Source of the DNA: Hyella patelloides LEGE 07179
GTDB lineage: Bacteria > Cyanobacteriota > Cyanobacteriia > Cyanobacteriales > Xenococcaceae
Length of the DNA: 64,000 nucleotides
Direction of reading: 5' to 3'
Assembly (NCBI RefSeq): GCF_900659865.1
Contig: NZ_LR213766.1
Span: 1-64,000, forward strand
Shown here in pieces: positions 277 to 41,024 of the stretch. A model generated the notes under the pieces. That model was not told the DNA's origin. It searched no databases and saw only the letters and a program-made list of their open reading frames with translations. How positions within the stretch are numbered: the first letter of the stretch is position 1; every line of letters starts with the position of its first letter. Both the position numbers and the translations under genes were made by a program.

Positions 277-1875
277 TTATCTAGCCTGGGGTAACAGAGC
301 CATAGGATTAGTCGCTGTTGAGCCATTGGGGCGAATTTCAAAATGGAGGTGAGGACCAGTGCTACGACCAGTAGTACCCATTTCAGCAATTAATTGTCCT
401 TGTGTAACTCTTTGACCACTGTTCACTAAAATACGATTGTTATGAGCATAAAAAGTAACGCTACCATCAGAATGTCTTAGTTTAACTAGGTTGCCATAAC
501 CACCAGAATTCCAACCAGCAAAAATCACCTCTCCTGGGGCTGCTGCCATGATAGGAGTGCCAATAGGTGCAGCAATATCAATTCCCTTGTGCATTCTTCC
601 CCAACGCCAGCCCCAACCAGAGGTGAGAGTGCCTTGAGCGGGCCACATATAACCATCAAAAACAGGGTTATCTGGGAAATGTTCTTCTGGAGAATCCAAA
701 GGAGGTAAATCGGGTGCAATACTATTGTTTCCCGAAGGGCTGATAACTGTATTAAAGTTTTCTGCTGGAGTAGGTGCAGAAGCTAAAGACGGATTTCGTG
801 GTTGGGCATCGTTGCTTACTTGCTCATTCTCTTCTGAAACATTTGTCAGTACTGAGGCGTTTGTTTCGGAAGATACTTTAGAGCCAGCTCGTTCATTAGA
901 CTCAGTGGGTTGTACCACTGCTGTCGTTTTATTACTGCCGTTTTGATCTTGATATCTCGTCCGTAGTTGAATAATATCTTGTCTCAGCCTGCTGATGTAA
1001 GGATCTGAGTCTTGAGATATATTACCATCAGATGTTTGTTCGGCTTTTTCTACAGGGTTTGTGGCTATAGACTCTAAATTTTGCTTTTTACTACCAGATT
1101 CTGCTTTTTTCTCTACTAGAGAAGATAGAGAGGCTGGCTTTTTAGAGCTTGAATTGGCAAAGTTGTTACTCAAAGAAAACCTGCGATCTTGGCGGAGCCG
1201 AGGCACTTCGTGGTCAGCTTCGCTGGCTCGCTTTGCGAGATCGCCAGATACTTCAATTCTTTGATAATTATGTTCTTGTGCTAACTCCAGACTGGGAATT
1301 ACCAACTGATAATTTATGTTCAGAAAGTTGGGGTTAGTTAATTGATTAGCTTCAATAATTTGATTGCTGGAGATGCCATACTGACGAGCAATTTCTGTAA
1401 TAGTATCCCCTGCTCTAACAGTATGAATTTTTTGAAATGTTTCTTGCGTCTCAATTTTGGCTAGTTTCAAAGAAGGTAATTGGGGTATCCCTTCAGTAGT
1501 AGTTTCTCGAACTAGGTCGGATTTAATTAAGATTGTCGGTGTAGCTTCTTCTTGATTAGCATTAGCACCACCAATTGAACCCGATTTTTGATTGCTCTGC
1601 ATACTCTGTATTGCGCGAGTATCGAGAGAAGGTAATTCTGCAATCAAAGCCCGACCTTTGTGGTCAAAGATAGTCGCTTTTGCTTGTGCTGGCTGATGAA
1701 AAAATACCGTTGCTCCCAAAGATGAGATTGAAGCAATTAAACCCAATCCCCATGTCTTCAAGAAGTTTCGTTTTTTGTGGTTACTGGTAGATATAGCTTG
1801 CTCCTTTTTATCAGCTAAAAGGAGTGGGTTTGGTAATTGGGAGCTTACAGGTGATTTTTGTTCTTGCATAGCCAT
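277..1875 (-). CDS. Membrane-anchored LysM and M23 peptidase (murein hydrolase-like)
   Basis: Likely a peptidoglycan endopeptidase or murein hydrolase activator acting at the envelope. A basic N-terminus leads into one hydrophobic segment (about residues 37-59). A LysM domain follows at about 150-195 (HTVRAGDTITEIARQYGIS), then a long low-complexity Ser/Asn/Glu linker and a C-terminal M23 domain (about 410-525). The M23 zinc motifs are present: HKGID (HxxxD type), YAHN, and HLHFE (HxH). I chose the ATG at 1873-1875, which has an AAAAAGAGA stretch just upstream; a GTG 11 codons earlier is possible. The linker carries an 18-codon insertion from a dispersed repeat (1183-1244). The gene is monocistronic; a strong inverted repeat lies upstream at 2033-2050. 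Confidence 0.88.
   Translation of the reverse strand: MAMQEQKSPVSSQLPNPLLLADKKEQAISTSNHKKRNFLKTWGLGLIASISSLGATVFFHQPAQAKATIFDHKGRALIAELPSLDTRAIQSMQSNQKSGSIGGANANQEEATPTILIKSDLVRETTTEGIPQLPSLKLAKIETQETFQKIHTVRAGDTITEIARQYGISSNQIIEANQLTNPNFLNINYQLVIPSLELAQEHNYQRIEVSGDLAKRASEADHEVPRLRQDRRFSLSNNFANSSSKKPASLSSLVEKKAESGSKKQNLESIATNPVEKAEQTSDGNISQDSDPYISRLRQDIIQLRTRYQDQNGSNKTTAVVQPTESNERAGSKVSSETNASVLTNVSEENEQVSNDAQPRNPSLASAPTPAENFNTVISPSGNNSIAPDLPPLDSPEEHFPDNPVFDGYMWPAQGTLTSGWGWRWGRMHKGIDIAAPIGTPIMAAAPGEVIFAGWNSGGYGNLVKLRHSDGSVTFYAHNNRILVNSGQRVTQGQLIAEMGTTGRSTGPHLHFEIRPNGSTATNPMALLPQAR
1183..1244. repeat. 62-bp GCGATC...GATCGC element inserted in frame in the M23 peptidase gene
   Basis: A GC-rich, partly palindromic segment in an AT-rich gene. 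It starts with GCGATC and ends with GATCGC, as if a HIP1 octamer had been split and its GATC duplicated. Read on the coding strand it gives SGDLAKRASEAD and following residues. The same 62-bp length, the same frame and nearly the same first half recur at 40483-40544. The net addition over one HIP1 site is 54 bp, or 18 codons. Confidence 0.8.
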
Positions 1876-2032
1876 GGATCTCTTTTTTAATAGTCTTTGG
1901 GTAACCACCTAGATATCTAGTTAGTTGTCATAACGAAAGCATTTTAGTGTTTTAAATTTGTTTCTTTAAACCCAATTTAAGAAGAAGCACAATATTTAAC
2001 TTGCGTTAAGTCTTGAAACTTCCTTTATAAAG

Positions 2033-9476: not shown

Positions 9477-9537
9477 GCAAGGGTACTAAGGAGTAGTGTC
9501 TGCCTTATTATATCGAACATATAAGGATAAAAGATGA

Positions 9538-9655
9538 GGGATGAAGGATGAAGGATGAAGGATGAAGGATGAAGGATGCCTATCACGGATACCGCTTCGC
9601 ATAAAGGATGAAGGATAAAAGATGAGGGATGAAGGATGAAGGATGAGGGATGAGG
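9538..9655. repeat. GGATGAA heptamer array interrupted by a GC-rich insert
   Basis: Tandem heptamers of the GGATGAA/GGATGAG type fill 9538-9578 and 9605-9655, between prfC and the TPR gene. They are separated by a short GC-rich stretch (about 9579-9602) containing ATACCGCTTCGCAT. Such short tandemly repeated repetitive (STRR) sequences are common in cyanobacteria. Open frames crossing it are artefacts of the repeat. Confidence 0.85.
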
Positions 9656-9807
9656 AGGTAATAGATGAGAATTAGCCACCAATAACTAATTGCCAGCAAC
9701 CAGCAACAACGAGCCACTAACTACCAGCACACGAACCCAGTAAATCAAAACCCATCTCAGTTCATCAAAACGCTCGACAAACAGCTACTAACAAACAATC
9801 AAATATT

Positions 9808-9859
9808 GTAAGGGCGATTCACGACGCGAAGCTAGTCCTTTAGGGCGAATTGCCCTTAC
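9808..9859. repeat. Palindromic element with a second repeat inside it
   Basis: Outer arms GTAAGGGC (9808-9815) and GCCCTTAC (9852-9859) are perfect inverted repeats separated by 36 bp. The interior holds GACGCGAAGCTAG and AGTCCTTTAGGGC, the latter shared with the repeats at 25596-25620 and 27432-27456. This looks like one small repeat inserted into another. It may also act as a hairpin terminator; the right end overlaps the last codons of the TPR gene. Confidence 0.6.
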
Positions 9860-14180: not shown

Positions 14181-14315
14181 CAACAATTTCGTTAAGCACA
14201 ATCCTTGAGCCTCACTTTAGAATCTTGATATCTCAAAGATAAATAGAGATGAAATATTTCCATAATTTTGATGTTCATCCTCATTAAAGTTCTTAAAGGC
14301 GATAAAGGTGAAAAT

Positions 14316-15230
14316 GTGAGTTACAAAACTAGATTTAGAGCAACACTAATCGGTTTTACCGCCGTCTTGATGTGGGCAACTTTAGCACTGCTAACAAAAT
14401 TAAGCGGTTCTGTTCCCCCTTTTCAACTTATGGCAATGTCTTTTACCGTTGCTTCTTCGATTGGGTTAGCACTATGGATTAAAAAAGGTAATAATTTTCT
14501 TTGTGCCTTAAAGCTACCCAAAAAAGTATGGGGTTTAGGGATTTTTGGTCTTTTTGGCTATCACTGCTTTTACTTTATTGCCCTTAAAAATGCTCCTGCG
14601 GTTGAAGCCAGCCTAATTGCCTATTTATGGCCCTTATTTATCGTGCTATTTTCAGCTTTATTACCCAATGAAAAACTGCGATGGTTTCATATTGTCGGTG
14701 CAATTTCTGGATTTTTAGGGGCTGGATTGTTAGTAACGGCAGGAAGTTCTGTAACATTTGAGGCTCAGTATAGCTTAGGATATTTAACCGCACTAATTTG
14801 TGCCTTAACCTGGTCTAGTTACTCGGTTTTGTCTAGATGTTTTGGTTTTGTATCTACAGATGCGGTTGCTGGATTTTGCGTTGTTACGGCAATTTTAGCC
14901 TGGCTTTGTCATTGGCTGTTTGAACCGACTGTTATTCCTGTAGGAAAAGAGTGGCTTGCTATCGTTTGCCTGGGACTAGCACCAGTGGGATTGGCGTTTT
15001 TTACCTGGGATTATGGGGTTAAAAATGGCAATATTAAAGCTTTGGGTTCTCTTTCCTATGCAGCACCCCTGTTATCTACTCTATTGCTAATTGCCTTTGG
15101 ATTTTCTGAAGCTAGTTGGAAGCTGGGAGTCGCCTGTTTGCTGATCGTTGGCGGTGCTATTCTCGCAGCAGGAGATTTCTTGAAAAAAGGTACAGAGAGC
15201 AATATTCTCGATCGCCCTCGCAAAAAATAA
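14316..15230 (+). CDS. EamA/DMT-family exporter, YddG-like
   Basis: Ten-helix drug/metabolite transporter with two EamA repeats. The N-terminus RFRATLIGFTAVLMWATLAL and the loop ALKNAPAVEASLIAYLWPLF resemble the aromatic amino acid exporter YddG. I chose the GTG at 14316, which has AAAGGTG in front of it and gives the usual YddG-type N-terminus; an ATG at 14268 would add 16 residues with no ribosome site. It acts in the plasma membrane and probably exports amino acids or related metabolites. It lies about 135 bp downstream of the AraC gene. Confidence 0.85.
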   Translation: MSYKTRFRATLIGFTAVLMWATLALLTKLSGSVPPFQLMAMSFTVASSIGLALWIKKGNNFLCALKLPKKVWGLGIFGLFGYHCFYFIALKNAPAVEASLIAYLWPLFIVLFSALLPNEKLRWFHIVGAISGFLGAGLLVTAGSSVTFEAQYSLGYLTALICALTWSSYSVLSRCFGFVSTDAVAGFCVVTAILAWLCHWLFEPTVIPVGKEWLAIVCLGLAPVGLAFFTWDYGVKNGNIKALGSLSYAAPLLSTLLLIAFGFSEASWKLGVACLLIVGGAILAAGDFLKKGTESNILDRPRKK

Positions 15231-15241
15231 ATCCGAAACAA

Positions 15242-15277
15242 GCGATCTCGCCGTTGGCGAGGCGCGTGCGCGATCGC
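15242..15277. repeat. 36-bp GCGATC...GATCGC palindromic element (intergenic copy)
   Basis: Starts with GCGATC, ends with GATCGC, and contains TCGCCGTTGGCGAGGCGCG. It is nearly identical to the 35-bp copy inside the RTX gene (29589-29623), read in the opposite direction, but one base longer. It lies between the convergent exporter and Ycf39 genes, where frame does not matter. Confidence 0.8.
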
Positions 15278-15342: not shown

Positions 15343-16326
15343 CTAAAACTGATTCTTGTAAGGAACAGTGGGTTTTTTCTTCTTCTTATTTTTATTTTTC
15401 TGGTAATCAATTTCTTTGAGCTTCTTCATGATGCGGGTGAAATACTCATCCATATATTCTTCCATAGTAGTAATCTCTTGGCGATCGATACCAAAAGTTT
15501 CATACGTTTCGTCCATATTGGCATCCAGAGGCTTACCACTAGCTAGAACTTCAGCAAAAGTTAAACGATCTGCGGTATTTTGTCCCCAAGCAAAAAAGCG
15601 AGTTACTCGACGCATCAAACGCAATACAGCTAAAGAAACCGTGGAAATTTTGGCATCCTTACCAGATAATCGCTCGCAAAGGTTGATAATCTCATAAGCC
15701 CCCCAAGCTCTTGTACCAACTACAGGGAAGGTTTGTTTTTCTGTTTCAGGTACTTCCAAAGCACGTATAGCAAACTTAGCAATATCCTGGGTATTTATGT
15801 AAGCAATGGGAGTGTTTTCCCCACTCACCCAAACTACATCATTATCCAAGATGGGAACAGCATACTGAGCGATTAAACCCTGCATGAAGCCAGCAAGCTG
15901 TAAAATTGTGTAATTTAAGCCAGATTCTTTTAAGAAAAGCTCTGTGCAGTGTTTGATTTCCATTAAAGGAACATCAGGGTATTTTTCTGCATTCAGAATA
16001 GAGAAAAAAATGTATCTGTCAACATCAGAATTTTGTACTGCTTGAATTAGATTAACTTTTCCTGACCAATCTACAGTTTTAATGCTCAAAGTATCAGTAA
16101 TTCTTGTAGTTGCTGCATCAATCACTGCATCCACTCCATCTAGCGCAGGTGCAATAGTTTCTTGATTGCAGATATCACCCTTAACAACTTCTGCGCCCCA
16201 TTCACTTAAAAAAGATGCTCTACTGAGACTGCGTGTTAAGCAGCGTACTTCATAGCCTTTATCTAAAGCATGGCGGACTACTTGTCTCCCCAAAGTACCA
16301 GTCGCACCAACTACTAATAGTTTCAT
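15343..16326 (-). CDS. ycf39: Ycf39-like atypical short-chain dehydrogenase
   Basis: NAD(P)-binding NmrA/Ycf39-type protein, 327 residues. The Rossmann motif is LLVVGATGTLGRQVVRHAL; family blocks include KGDICNQETIAPALDGVDAV and NYTILQLAGFMQG. In Synechocystis, Ycf39 binds high-light-inducible proteins and helps supply chlorophyll to newly made D1 during photosystem II assembly; that role is assumed from family. The C-terminus ends in a lysine-rich tail (KNKNKKKKKPTV) not needed for the fold. It lies convergent to the exporter gene and has a long upstream gap. Other NmrA-like proteins are possible, but the length and motifs fit Ycf39. Confidence 0.8.
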   Translation of the reverse strand: MKLLVVGATGTLGRQVVRHALDKGYEVRCLTRSLSRASFLSEWGAEVVKGDICNQETIAPALDGVDAVIDAATTRITDTLSIKTVDWSGKVNLIQAVQNSDVDRYIFFSILNAEKYPDVPLMEIKHCTELFLKESGLNYTILQLAGFMQGLIAQYAVPILDNDVVWVSGENTPIAYINTQDIAKFAIRALEVPETEKQTFPVVGTRAWGAYEIINLCERLSGKDAKISTVSLAVLRLMRRVTRFFAWGQNTADRLTFAEVLASGKPLDANMDETYETFGIDRQEITTMEEYMDEYFTRIMKKLKEIDYQKNKNKKKKKPTVPYKNQF

Positions 16327-25595: not shown

Positions 25596-25620
25596 GCGAC
25601 CATCGGTGAGTCCTTTAGGG
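25596..25620 (+). repeat. 25-bp repeat, inverted partner of 27432-27456
   Basis: GCGACCATCGGTGAGTCC plus TTTAGGG, an exact reverse complement of 27432-27456. The pair flanks the radical SAM gene. It sits inside a longer GC-rich stretch (about 25570-25660) that opens a spurious 72-codon frame on the + strand. Confidence 0.8.
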
Positions 25621-27431: not shown

Positions 27432-27456
27432 CCCTAAAGGACTCACCGATGGTCGC
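27432..27456 (-). repeat. 25-bp repeat, inverted partner of 25596-25620
   Basis: Exact reverse complement of the copy on the other side of the radical SAM gene. It is part of a longer GC-rich element ending in GAGATCGC at about 27472-27479, the right-end signature of the GCGATC...GATCGC repeat family. Confidence 0.8.
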
Positions 27457-28679: not shown

Positions 28680-29651
28680 CTAAATATTAGATACAACTAA
28701 AATTTCAGAATTAGTTAGATTTGGTTTATTGGTAAATTGAGCAATCTTGACTTGTCCAGCAGAACCAGTACCATCAGGATCGAAGAATAAATCACCATTG
28801 CTGCGGTTATAGATAAAGCGATCTTCTCCATCCTGCGCGCTACTACCAAGGACGAATTGATCGCCCGTGGGAAAGCGATTATTAGTTAAATTAGTATCAC
28901 CAAGAACATTACGATTAACTAAAATTTGATCTTGCTCCACATTGTAATCTGTAACTCGATCTACCCCATTGCCTAAACTATCTGTTTCAGCAACTAGGAG
29001 AAAACGCTCCGAGCCTGCACCACCCGTTAAAACATCGTTTCCTGCACCACCAGTAAGAAAGTCATTACCACTACCCCCAATTAAGGTATCGTTACCAACA
29101 CCGCCTTCGAGATAGTCATCACCATTTTGACCCTCATGATAGTCATTACCATCGCTACCAAAGAGACTATCTTCACCCTCTCCACCATAGGCAAGATCGT
29201 CTCCTTCTTCACCCCAAAAAAGATCGTTACCTCCTTCTCCAAAAAGTAAGTCATCCCCCGTACCACCTAAGAGACTATCGCGATCGCCACCACCATAAAT
29301 AGTATCATCACACCAATAACCATAAATCAAATCTTGTCCAGTATCACCATAAATAGTGTCTTCACCCATTTGATTAGAAAAGGGAGATTCTCCGTCGATG
29401 GTATCGTTCCCTGCACCACCAGTCAGAAAATCATTTCCATTACCACCGTTCAAAGAATCATTCCCCGCACGACCAATTAAGCGATCGTTTCCATCTTCAG
29501 CAATAATTGTTCCTCCTTGATTACTGTTAGTCAAAATGTCATCACCATCGCTACCAAAGATGATATCGTTGATGTTACGACCGAATAAGCGATCGCAACG
29601 CGCCTCGCCAACGGCGAGATCGCTGCCGTCTGTTCCTAAAATATTTGCCAC
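28680..29651 (-). CDS. RTX-type calcium-binding repeat protein
   Basis: A 323-residue protein whose centre is a run of glycine/aspartate nonapeptides of the RTX type (GGAGNDTIDGE, GGSGNDFLTGG, and others; about 18 units at residues 25-215). They fold into a calcium-bound parallel beta-roll. The C-terminal 100 residues (VTDYNVEQDQILVNRNVLG, then FDPDGTGSAGQVKIAQF) match the usual end of cyanobacterial RTX proteins, which leave by type I secretion without a signal peptide. The start is GTG at 29649-29651 with AGAGG upstream. Nine codons near the N-terminus (residues about 12-20) come from an inserted repeat. No exporter gene is adjacent. Confidence 0.88.
   Translation of the reverse strand: MANILGTDGSDLAVGEARCDRLFGRNINDIIFGSDGDDILTNSNQGGTIIAEDGNDRLIGRAGNDSLNGGNGNDFLTGGAGNDTIDGESPFSNQMGEDTIYGDTGQDLIYGYWCDDTIYGGGDRDSLLGGTGDDLLFGEGGNDLFWGEEGDDLAYGGEGEDSLFGSDGNDYHEGQNGDDYLEGGVGNDTLIGGSGNDFLTGGAGNDVLTGGAGSERFLLVAETDSLGNGVDRVTDYNVEQDQILVNRNVLGDTNLTNNRFPTGDQFVLGSSAQDGEDRFIYNRSNGDLFFDPDGTGSAGQVKIAQFTNKPNLTNSEILVVSNI
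29589..29623. repeat. 35-bp GCGATC...GATCGC element in frame in the RTX gene
   Basis: On the coding strand it reads from GCGATC through the palindrome-like core to GATCGC and encodes DLAVGEARCDR. Removing it down to a single HIP1 octamer takes out 27 bp, nine codons, and gives ILGTDGSDRLFG, a normal RTX start. A 36-bp copy with almost the same sequence lies in noncoding DNA at 15242-15277. Confidence 0.8.
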
Positions 29652-39677: not shown

Positions 39678-41024
39678 ATGCAACAACATCACCAACAAAA
39701 GCTACTGATATTGGGTGCAAGACAGATGCAATTGCCAGCTTTTCAAGCTGCTAGAGAATTAGGTTTGTTTGTAATTGCTATTGACCCTTCACCTCATGCT
39801 GTGGGTTTAACTTTAGCAGATTGTTCTTATAACTACGATCTAGCAGATGAAGCAGCCATTTTGACTGTGGCAAAGCAGCATTCTATCGATGGCATCTTAA
39901 CTTTAGCTGCGGACTATCCAGTACCAATGGTAGCGAAAGTATCTCAGCAACTTAACATCCCAGGATTAAGTAAAACGGCTGCGATGGTTTCTACGAATAA
40001 AGCCCAAATGCGAAAGGTTTTACAAACAAAAGGAATCACAATTCCCCAATGGCGAGAAACCAGAACACTTAACCAAGCTCTAGAAGCAGTAAGAAATTTC
40101 CAAGGTGGGGTCATTGTCAAACCCGCAGATAGTTCGGGAGGGAGGGGTGTGACTTTGATTGAGAGTGATACTACAGATGAAACTATATCTAAAGCCTTTT
40201 ACAAAGCCCTGAATTTTAGTCAACAGGGTAAAGTGATGGTCGAAGAATTTATTGCAGGAAAAGAAATTTCGGTAGAAGCCATTACTATCAAGGGTAAAAC
40301 AGAAATTGTACGTATCACCGATAAACTAACCACTGAAGCTCCTTTCTTTGTGGAAATCGGTCACAGTCAACCCAGCCAACTATCAGCAAAGGAAAAAGAA
40401 CAGGTTACACAATTAACCCTCGCAGGAATTGCAGCTTTAGAAATCGATAACACTGCTAGTCACACAGAAATTCGCTTTTCAGGCGATCTCGCAAAGCGAG
40501 CCAGCAAAGCTGACCGCTTAGCACCTCAGCGAAGCCGAGATCGCCCTTACATAATTGAAATCGGTGCGCGGTTAGGGGGTGGTTACATTACTTCCCATCT
40601 TGTACCCCTTTCCTGTGGAGTGGATTTGGTCAAAGCTACATTACAACTAGCCATCGGTGAAACTCCTAATCTGCAACCAACTAAAGATTGTGGCTCGGCA
40701 ATTCGTTTTTTGCGCCCCGATCCTGGTCAAGTAATTGATATTCAAGGAGTTGCAGCAGCCCAAAAAGTTGCAGAAATCACAGAAGTTGTTGTAGAAGTCA
40801 CCCCAGGAAAGCTCATCAAACCCTTACGAGATGCTACCGCCAGAGTGGGTTATGTAATTAGTAAAGGAAAAAATGCGATCGCAGCTATTCAAAACGCCGA
40901 AACTGCCAAAAATTTGATTCAAATCAATACTTGGAAAAATCAAGAAGTCAGGAAGATGAAGAATGTAATAAATAGGGAAAAATCAACAACAAGCAATCAA
41001 CCACTAACCACTAACCAATTATGA
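39678..41024 (+). CDS. ATP-grasp ligase with an in-frame repeat insertion
   Basis: A carboxylate-amine or carboxylate-thiol ligase that forms an acyl-phosphate with ATP. The N-terminal pre-ATP fold starts KLLILGARQMQLPAFQAARE; the ATP-grasp core has VIVKPADSSGGRGVTLIES and MVEEFIAGKEISVEAI; the metal-binding end is IIEIGARLGGGYIT. An 18-codon repeat insertion (40483-40544) sits between HTEIRF and PYIIEIGARLGG, a loop just before the catalytic strand. The last residues (TTSNQPLTTNQL) are coded by heptamer-type repeat DNA. It abuts the serine hydrolase gene and overlaps the amidohydrolase gene by 4 bp. A role in acylating the aminosugar is inferred. Confidence 0.85.
   Translation: MQQHHQQKLLILGARQMQLPAFQAARELGLFVIAIDPSPHAVGLTLADCSYNYDLADEAAILTVAKQHSIDGILTLAADYPVPMVAKVSQQLNIPGLSKTAAMVSTNKAQMRKVLQTKGITIPQWRETRTLNQALEAVRNFQGGVIVKPADSSGGRGVTLIESDTTDETISKAFYKALNFSQQGKVMVEEFIAGKEISVEAITIKGKTEIVRITDKLTTEAPFFVEIGHSQPSQLSAKEKEQVTQLTLAGIAALEIDNTASHTEIRFSGDLAKRASKADRLAPQRSRDRPYIIEIGARLGGGYITSHLVPLSCGVDLVKATLQLAIGETPNLQPTKDCGSAIRFLRPDPGQVIDIQGVAAAQKVAEITEVVVEVTPGKLIKPLRDATARVGYVISKGKNAIAAIQNAETAKNLIQINTWKNQEVRKMKNVINREKSTTSNQPLTTNQL
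40483..40544. repeat. 62-bp GCGATC...GATCGC element in frame in the ATP-grasp gene
   Basis: Exactly as long as the copy at 1183-1244, with the same bounding hexamers and nearly the same first half, read in the same frame (SGDLAKRASKAD against SGDLAKRASEAD). The net addition is 54 bp, 18 codons. It lies within the catalytic domain rather than in a linker. Confidence 0.8.

Follow-up and report, generated by a model that had tools for sequence, protein, structure and literature searches.

Very small hairpin elements, most likely inserted at HIP1 sites and found in frame within genes of the cyanobacterium Hyella patelloides

A 62-nt palindromic segment interrupts the linker of a peptidase gene near the start of contig NZ_LR213766.1 of Hyella patelloides LEGE 07179, and a twin lies elsewhere in the same 64,000-nucleotide stretch (positions 1 to 64,000, here called the window). 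Are such segments ordinary parts of proteins, or mobile DNA that inserted at HIP1 (GCGATCGC), which is among the most over-represented oligomers known in cyanobacteria? The original prediction took the second view, and its description of the segment was confirmed. The element starts with GCGATC, ends with GATCGC and is in frame in the peptidase linker of a 543-codon ORF (277-1908); the twin at 40483, in the unrelated ATP-grasp ORF, is 82% identical to it in a gap-free alignment (blastn E 3.8e-11) and has the same reading frame with respect to the element, the two peptides being GDLAKRASEADHEVPRLRQ and GDLAKRASKADRLAPQRSR. The copies in the window and the ORFs that host the two 62-mers are as follows.

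1183..1244, plus strand: element A, 62-nt composite of two units in tandem, in frame in the LysM–peptidase M23 linker
1183..1211, plus strand: element A, unit 1, with half-HIP1 GCGATC, hairpin TTGGCGGAGCCGA, GGC and mini-hairpin CACTTCGTG, from comparison of the sequence with the unit consensus
1212..1215, plus strand: element A, internal border GGTC between the units, presumably a decayed GATC
1216..1244, plus strand: element A, unit 2, with hairpin AGCTTCGCT, GGC, hairpin TCGCTTTGCGA and right border GATCGC
277..1908, minus strand: host ORF A, 543 codons, LysM and peptidase M23, with the 18-codon insert
40483..40544, minus strand: element B, 62-nt composite, in frame within the ATP-grasp ORF
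40512..40515, minus strand: element B, internal border GGTC
39678..41024, plus strand: host ORF B, 448-aa ATP-grasp ligase (L-amino acid ligase C-terminal domain)
15242..15277, plus strand: single-unit copy, 36 nt, net +28, not frame-keeping, intergenic
29589..29623, minus strand: single-unit copy, 35 nt, net +27, in frame in an RTX repeat ORF

Unit 2 of element A has the layout of single 31-nt copies (GCGATCAGCTTCGCTGGCACTGCGTGATCGC). The 36-nt copy sits between an ORF at 14268-15230 (plus strand) and one at 15343-16326 (minus strand); the RTX repeat ORF occupies 28683-29651 on the minus strand, and its 35-nt copy has eight further identical copies in the genome. A strict pattern search for the 62-mer across the window gave no match as written.

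We counted spans running from GCGATC to GATCGC in 81 stretches of the same genome, 1.66 Mb in total with a GC content of 37%; stretches around the listed copies were used in addition for the other analyses. Spans of 30-39 nt were in excess, numbering 46 where the other full 10-nt bins held 9-22 each, and the GC-rich ones shared a common plan: GCGATC, then a hairpin with a stem of 3-5 bp and usually a 3-nt loop, GGC, a 3-bp mini-hairpin and GATCGC. A covariance model was built from 13 copies, all with intact borders. In the 8.06-Mb genome it found 95 copies at E<=0.01, a number that rises to 136 at E<=10. The E-value of the twin, the excess of 30-39 nt spans and the 95 copies found by the model exclude chance as an explanation. 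When the cores were searched for independently of the borders, both half-HIP1s were intact in 14 of 24 cores and at least one in 23 of 24.

Among 113 distinct copies, 48 were 35 nt long (net +27), 38 were 33 nt (net +25), six were 32 nt and ten were 55-62 nt, the long copies being doublets; single units add 23-28 nt over one HIP1, mostly 25 or 27. The predicted 62-nt sequence is thus genuine, but it is not the basic element: it is a composite of two short units, each of 25-27 nt. One 35-mer is present as nine identical copies in the genome, and units of 33 to 35 nt are identical at many unrelated loci, with subfamilies that share diagnostic hairpins. We also noticed three copies inside about 1.15 kb of one locus (L205 on contig C151, 2001-3151).

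The unit folds into two adjacent hairpins closed by pairing of the half-HIP1s. In 72 distinct rows, 96% of the cells were paired and 104 were double-changed, compared with 39 from shuffles, although this alignment had been fitted to the model and the count on 13 rows, made before fitting, is therefore cleaner. None of 500 shuffles gave as many double-changed cells, and slid structures paired in 24-45%. Identical units at unrelated loci imply copying between loci, and together with the compensatory changes in the hairpins they indicate a mobile, structure-dependent element; the conserved fold suggests that it is recognised as RNA or single-stranded DNA. We consider it very likely that the copies belong to a family of very small non-autonomous mobile hairpins, which insert specifically at HIP1 and are filtered by reading frame within genes.

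HIP1 was also the predicted target, and the empty sites agree. A copy on contig C49 (17966-17998) has a paralogue on contig C342, 84% identical over 184 nt, that lacks the 25 nt: the filled site reads gatgtGC[GATCTCGCGGAGCGAGGCACTGCGT]GATCGCtgat and the empty site gaagtGC-GATCGCtgat (the hyphen marks the junction). The fabH gene holds a 35-mer, that is a 27-nt insert, and in relatives fabH is typically 27 nt shorter; the insert was absent from all 28 orthologues read, and 14 of them have an intact GCGATCGC exactly at the insert site. The best-matching solved FabH chain has a gap of 10 residues at this place. In a GH3 enzyme with another type of 62-mer, exactly 18 residues are absent from all the relatives aligned. 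The DNA of GH3 and peptidase relatives has no HIP1 at the site, with one nearby in the GH3 relatives, and we read this as HIP1 turnover.

For element B, ATP-grasp homologues of Parabacteroides and Enterococcus lack 18 residues in the interval from SHTEI to the EIGARLGGG motif, as measured on plasmid-borne homologues, and the solved structure 3vot has a gap of 17 residues at the same place. The 62-mers have a net gain of 54 nt over one HIP1, which together with the gap in these distant homologues bears out the predicted 18 codons. A scan of genome contigs with the ATP-grasp protein as query gave distant relatives only, as did 30 relatives, and a DNA search of the plasmid collection gave no match. 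The same-genus peptidase orthologue lacks the segment of element A; element A alone is not decisive, because the peptidase linker varies in all relatives. We infer HIP1 as the empty site of the two window copies from frame arithmetic and from the rest of the family rather than from close relatives. The predicted duplication of GATC is seen as GATC on both sides of the element, although the cut can be placed only to within GCGATC.

To examine the coding copies, the element was replaced by one HIP1 and a spanning ORF of at least 150 codons was sought, so that genes here are long ORFs and not gene-finder calls. In the Hyella genome (G000), such an ORF was found for 31 of 58 copies with a net length divisible by three versus 11 of 55 others (p=4e-4), and among the top 30 copies of genome G002 for 13 of 19 frame-keeping copies versus 1 of 11 others. 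The predicted enrichment of frame-keeping lengths was thus positive in two genomes, with a pooled p of 2.5e-6 by a Fisher test that overstates independence, because the copies are related. Replacement by 8, 9 and 10 nt restored 31, 7 and 12 long ORFs in the frame-keeping group and 11, 4 and 3 in the others; that 8 nt restored them best means that the native site length is 8 modulo 3, like HIP1. As a reference, such ORFs contain 74% of the intact HIP1 sites. The retention in genes is best read as filtering, i.e. purifying selection against frameshifts.

Pfam families were obtained for most of the scanned proteins among the 31 hosts of frame-keeping copies. The hosts include FabH, NRPS modules, GH3, an integrase, GNAT enzymes, a CheW-domain protein, a histidine kinase and a competence-family membrane protein. 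The element DNA is thus shared by genes that have no relation to one another, is read in several frames, and is present in intergenic stretches too. Copies of 33 nt (net +25) at L196:2001-2033, L199:2001-2033, L103:2944-2976 and L201/L202/L203 break ORFs that are helicase-like, regulator-like and acetyltransferase-like by eye, as well as those of three paralogues, and these ORFs become continuous on computed replacement by HIP1. The mean number of open frames is 5.6 of 6 for 35-mers versus 4.5 for 33-mers. Use of the three reading frames was 10, 19 and 3 for the elements versus 50, 40 and 10% for HIP1, which is only suggestive of a preference of the elements for one reading frame of HIP1. Another in-frame copy lies in a protein with a telomere resolvase ResT/TelK catalytic domain (L222:359-2419, contig C305); the presence of this protein may hint at a linear replicon whose ends are hairpins.

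Many 35-mers terminate in a whole GCGATCGC that could take up a second unit, and stacking of this kind would account for the doublets. The internal border of nearly all doublets is GGTC, GGAC or GAAC, not GATC, and borders of the GGTC type probably derive from GATC by decay. We also observed a module, CGAACAGCAGAGAGGGCTAAGAACGC, joined to family units at HIP1 borders (L127:19896-19955, L228:2001-2058 and L146:5047-5128).

At E<=0.01, the model found 20-88 copies in most of the sampled genera of the taxonomic family (for example 53, 61 and 88 in genomes G002, G009 and G012). Counts were low (0-4) in the other genome of the genus and in genera g5 and g8, and genomes beyond the family had 0-2 copies each. 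Under stricter filters, 3 of 194 genomes across the class matched at E<=0.001, including that of the window, and a 400-kb sample of G154, from another family of the order, held no such element.

One rival reading takes the inserts for conserved protein segments, no more than normal linkers or domains, with a likeness in DNA that is compositional. The peptidase linker, variable in all relatives, could be taken that way, but unrelated genes share the same DNA, read in several frames, it is found between genes as well, and homologues are short by exactly 9 or 18 residues. The same-genus peptidase, the fabH orthologues and the GH3 relatives are all without the inserts, as the original prediction would have it; the fabH and GH3 comparisons refute this reading, and we find it hardly credible. 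Expansion on the spot, by slippage or templated repair at hairpins flanked by HIP1 and without any mobility, would suit short palindromic units, and a link of HIP1 itself to mismatch repair and recombination has been described (PMC4390886). We regard local expansion as very improbable, since many unrelated loci hold identical units of 33 to 35 nt and the subfamilies have diagnostic hairpins in common, which requires copying from one locus to another.

A further rival is that the copies are REP/REPIN-type palindromes mobilised by a RAYT (TnpA-REP, a Y1 HUH transposase), and the 62-mer would then be a REPIN doublet. Size, hairpins, doublets and dispersal are similar (PMC3116915, PMC3733652), cyanobacterial subclasses of TnpA-REP exist (PMC6006769), and the genome has eight Y1 transposase genes. 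No linkage of these genes to the copies was found, however: one of the eight loci has a copy, about 1 kb away, which is near chance density. In the 113 copies examined, the hairpin feet are GATC or its near variants GGTC, GGAC and GAAC, and the GTAG or CGTC tag is absent from them; the units of the 62-mers are direct tandems that share a border rather than inverted REPs, and the insertion target is HIP1. A REP/REPIN origin thus appears unlikely, and the small HIP1-specific hairpin family remains our preferred reading.

For this family, a copy-and-paste event would act on hairpins folded in RNA or single-stranded DNA, and insertion would proceed through a cut at GATC/HIP1 by machinery acting in trans; the unit is too short to encode a transposase. 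Where the right border re-creates HIP1, it would admit a second unit alongside the first and give doublets such as the 62-mers, which would then lose the internal GATC and afterwards spread as doublets. In-frame copies would persist because an insert of 9 or 18 residues is tolerated in a surface loop or linker. The 27-nt subfamily might even be adapted to life in genes, with its length divisible by three, its mostly open frames and its HIP1 re-created for stacking to 18 codons; we think this rather doubtful, and if it were true, the subfamily would keep supplying proteins with short inserts wherever HIP1 sites lie in genes.

The window contains other repeats as well. A second dispersed repeat, around GTCCTTTAGGG/CCCTAAAGGAC, is found at 9834-9858, 25596-25620 and 27432-27456 and at 61 places in the 1.66 Mb, often beside GCGCGACCGAAGG or GCGATGCG modules and without HIP1 bounds. 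A tandem array of the heptamer GGATGAA and its variants (9513-9666) resembles cyanobacterial tandem heptamers.

These results support the interpretation given in the original prediction and would make HIP1 the landing site for one of the smallest mobile DNAs. As the 25-nt and 27-nt subfamilies have the same target and differ in frame, they offer, within one genome, a natural experiment on the filtering of genic mobile DNA by selection. They also suggest a route by which unrelated proteins, FabH included, gain the same insert of 9 or 18 residues, which matters for annotation and for the interpretation of indels. Among the open-licence papers searched, we found none on this family or on HIP1-targeted coding inserts.

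Several known systems are comparable. Bacterial MITEs such as Nezha of cyanobacteria are likewise non-autonomous and dispersed, with inverted-repeat ends and some coding insertions, but they measure 70-300 bp with terminal repeats of 15-30 bp (PMC3733652); the units here are far smaller and their ends are half-HIP1s. REP/REPIN elements with RAYT are also short dispersed hairpins that form doublets, and some are already known inside genes (PMC3733652), whereas the present family has neither the GTAG/CGTC tag nor a linked RAYT and inserts specifically at HIP1. Rickettsia carries in-frame palindromic elements (RPEs) of about 150 bp (PMC10969869). The predicted likeness to them is one of function, as palindromic selfish DNA lies in frame in unrelated protein genes here too; RPEs have no HIP1 target, and the units here add only 23-28 nt, doublets at most 54. 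The nearest system is SDR5, which with other small dispersed repeats reportedly resides in Nostoc punctiforme and was reported by Elhai et al. in 2008 to be about 21-27 nt long, with compensated hairpin structure and nested copies. The net 23-28 nt of our units corresponds to that length. According to PMC4390886, SDR5 inserts in HIP1, so that, compared by description, the two agree in size, precise HIP1 insertion, compensated hairpins and nesting. They differ, as far as the description of SDR5 goes, in lineage, our model finding almost nothing outside the taxonomic family of the window, and in the many in-gene, frame-filtered copies and the doublets that spread in the Hyella family. The kind of element is thus already known from SDR5 and the RPEs, and what is new here is the family itself, its coding copies, the contrast between length and frame, and the composites.
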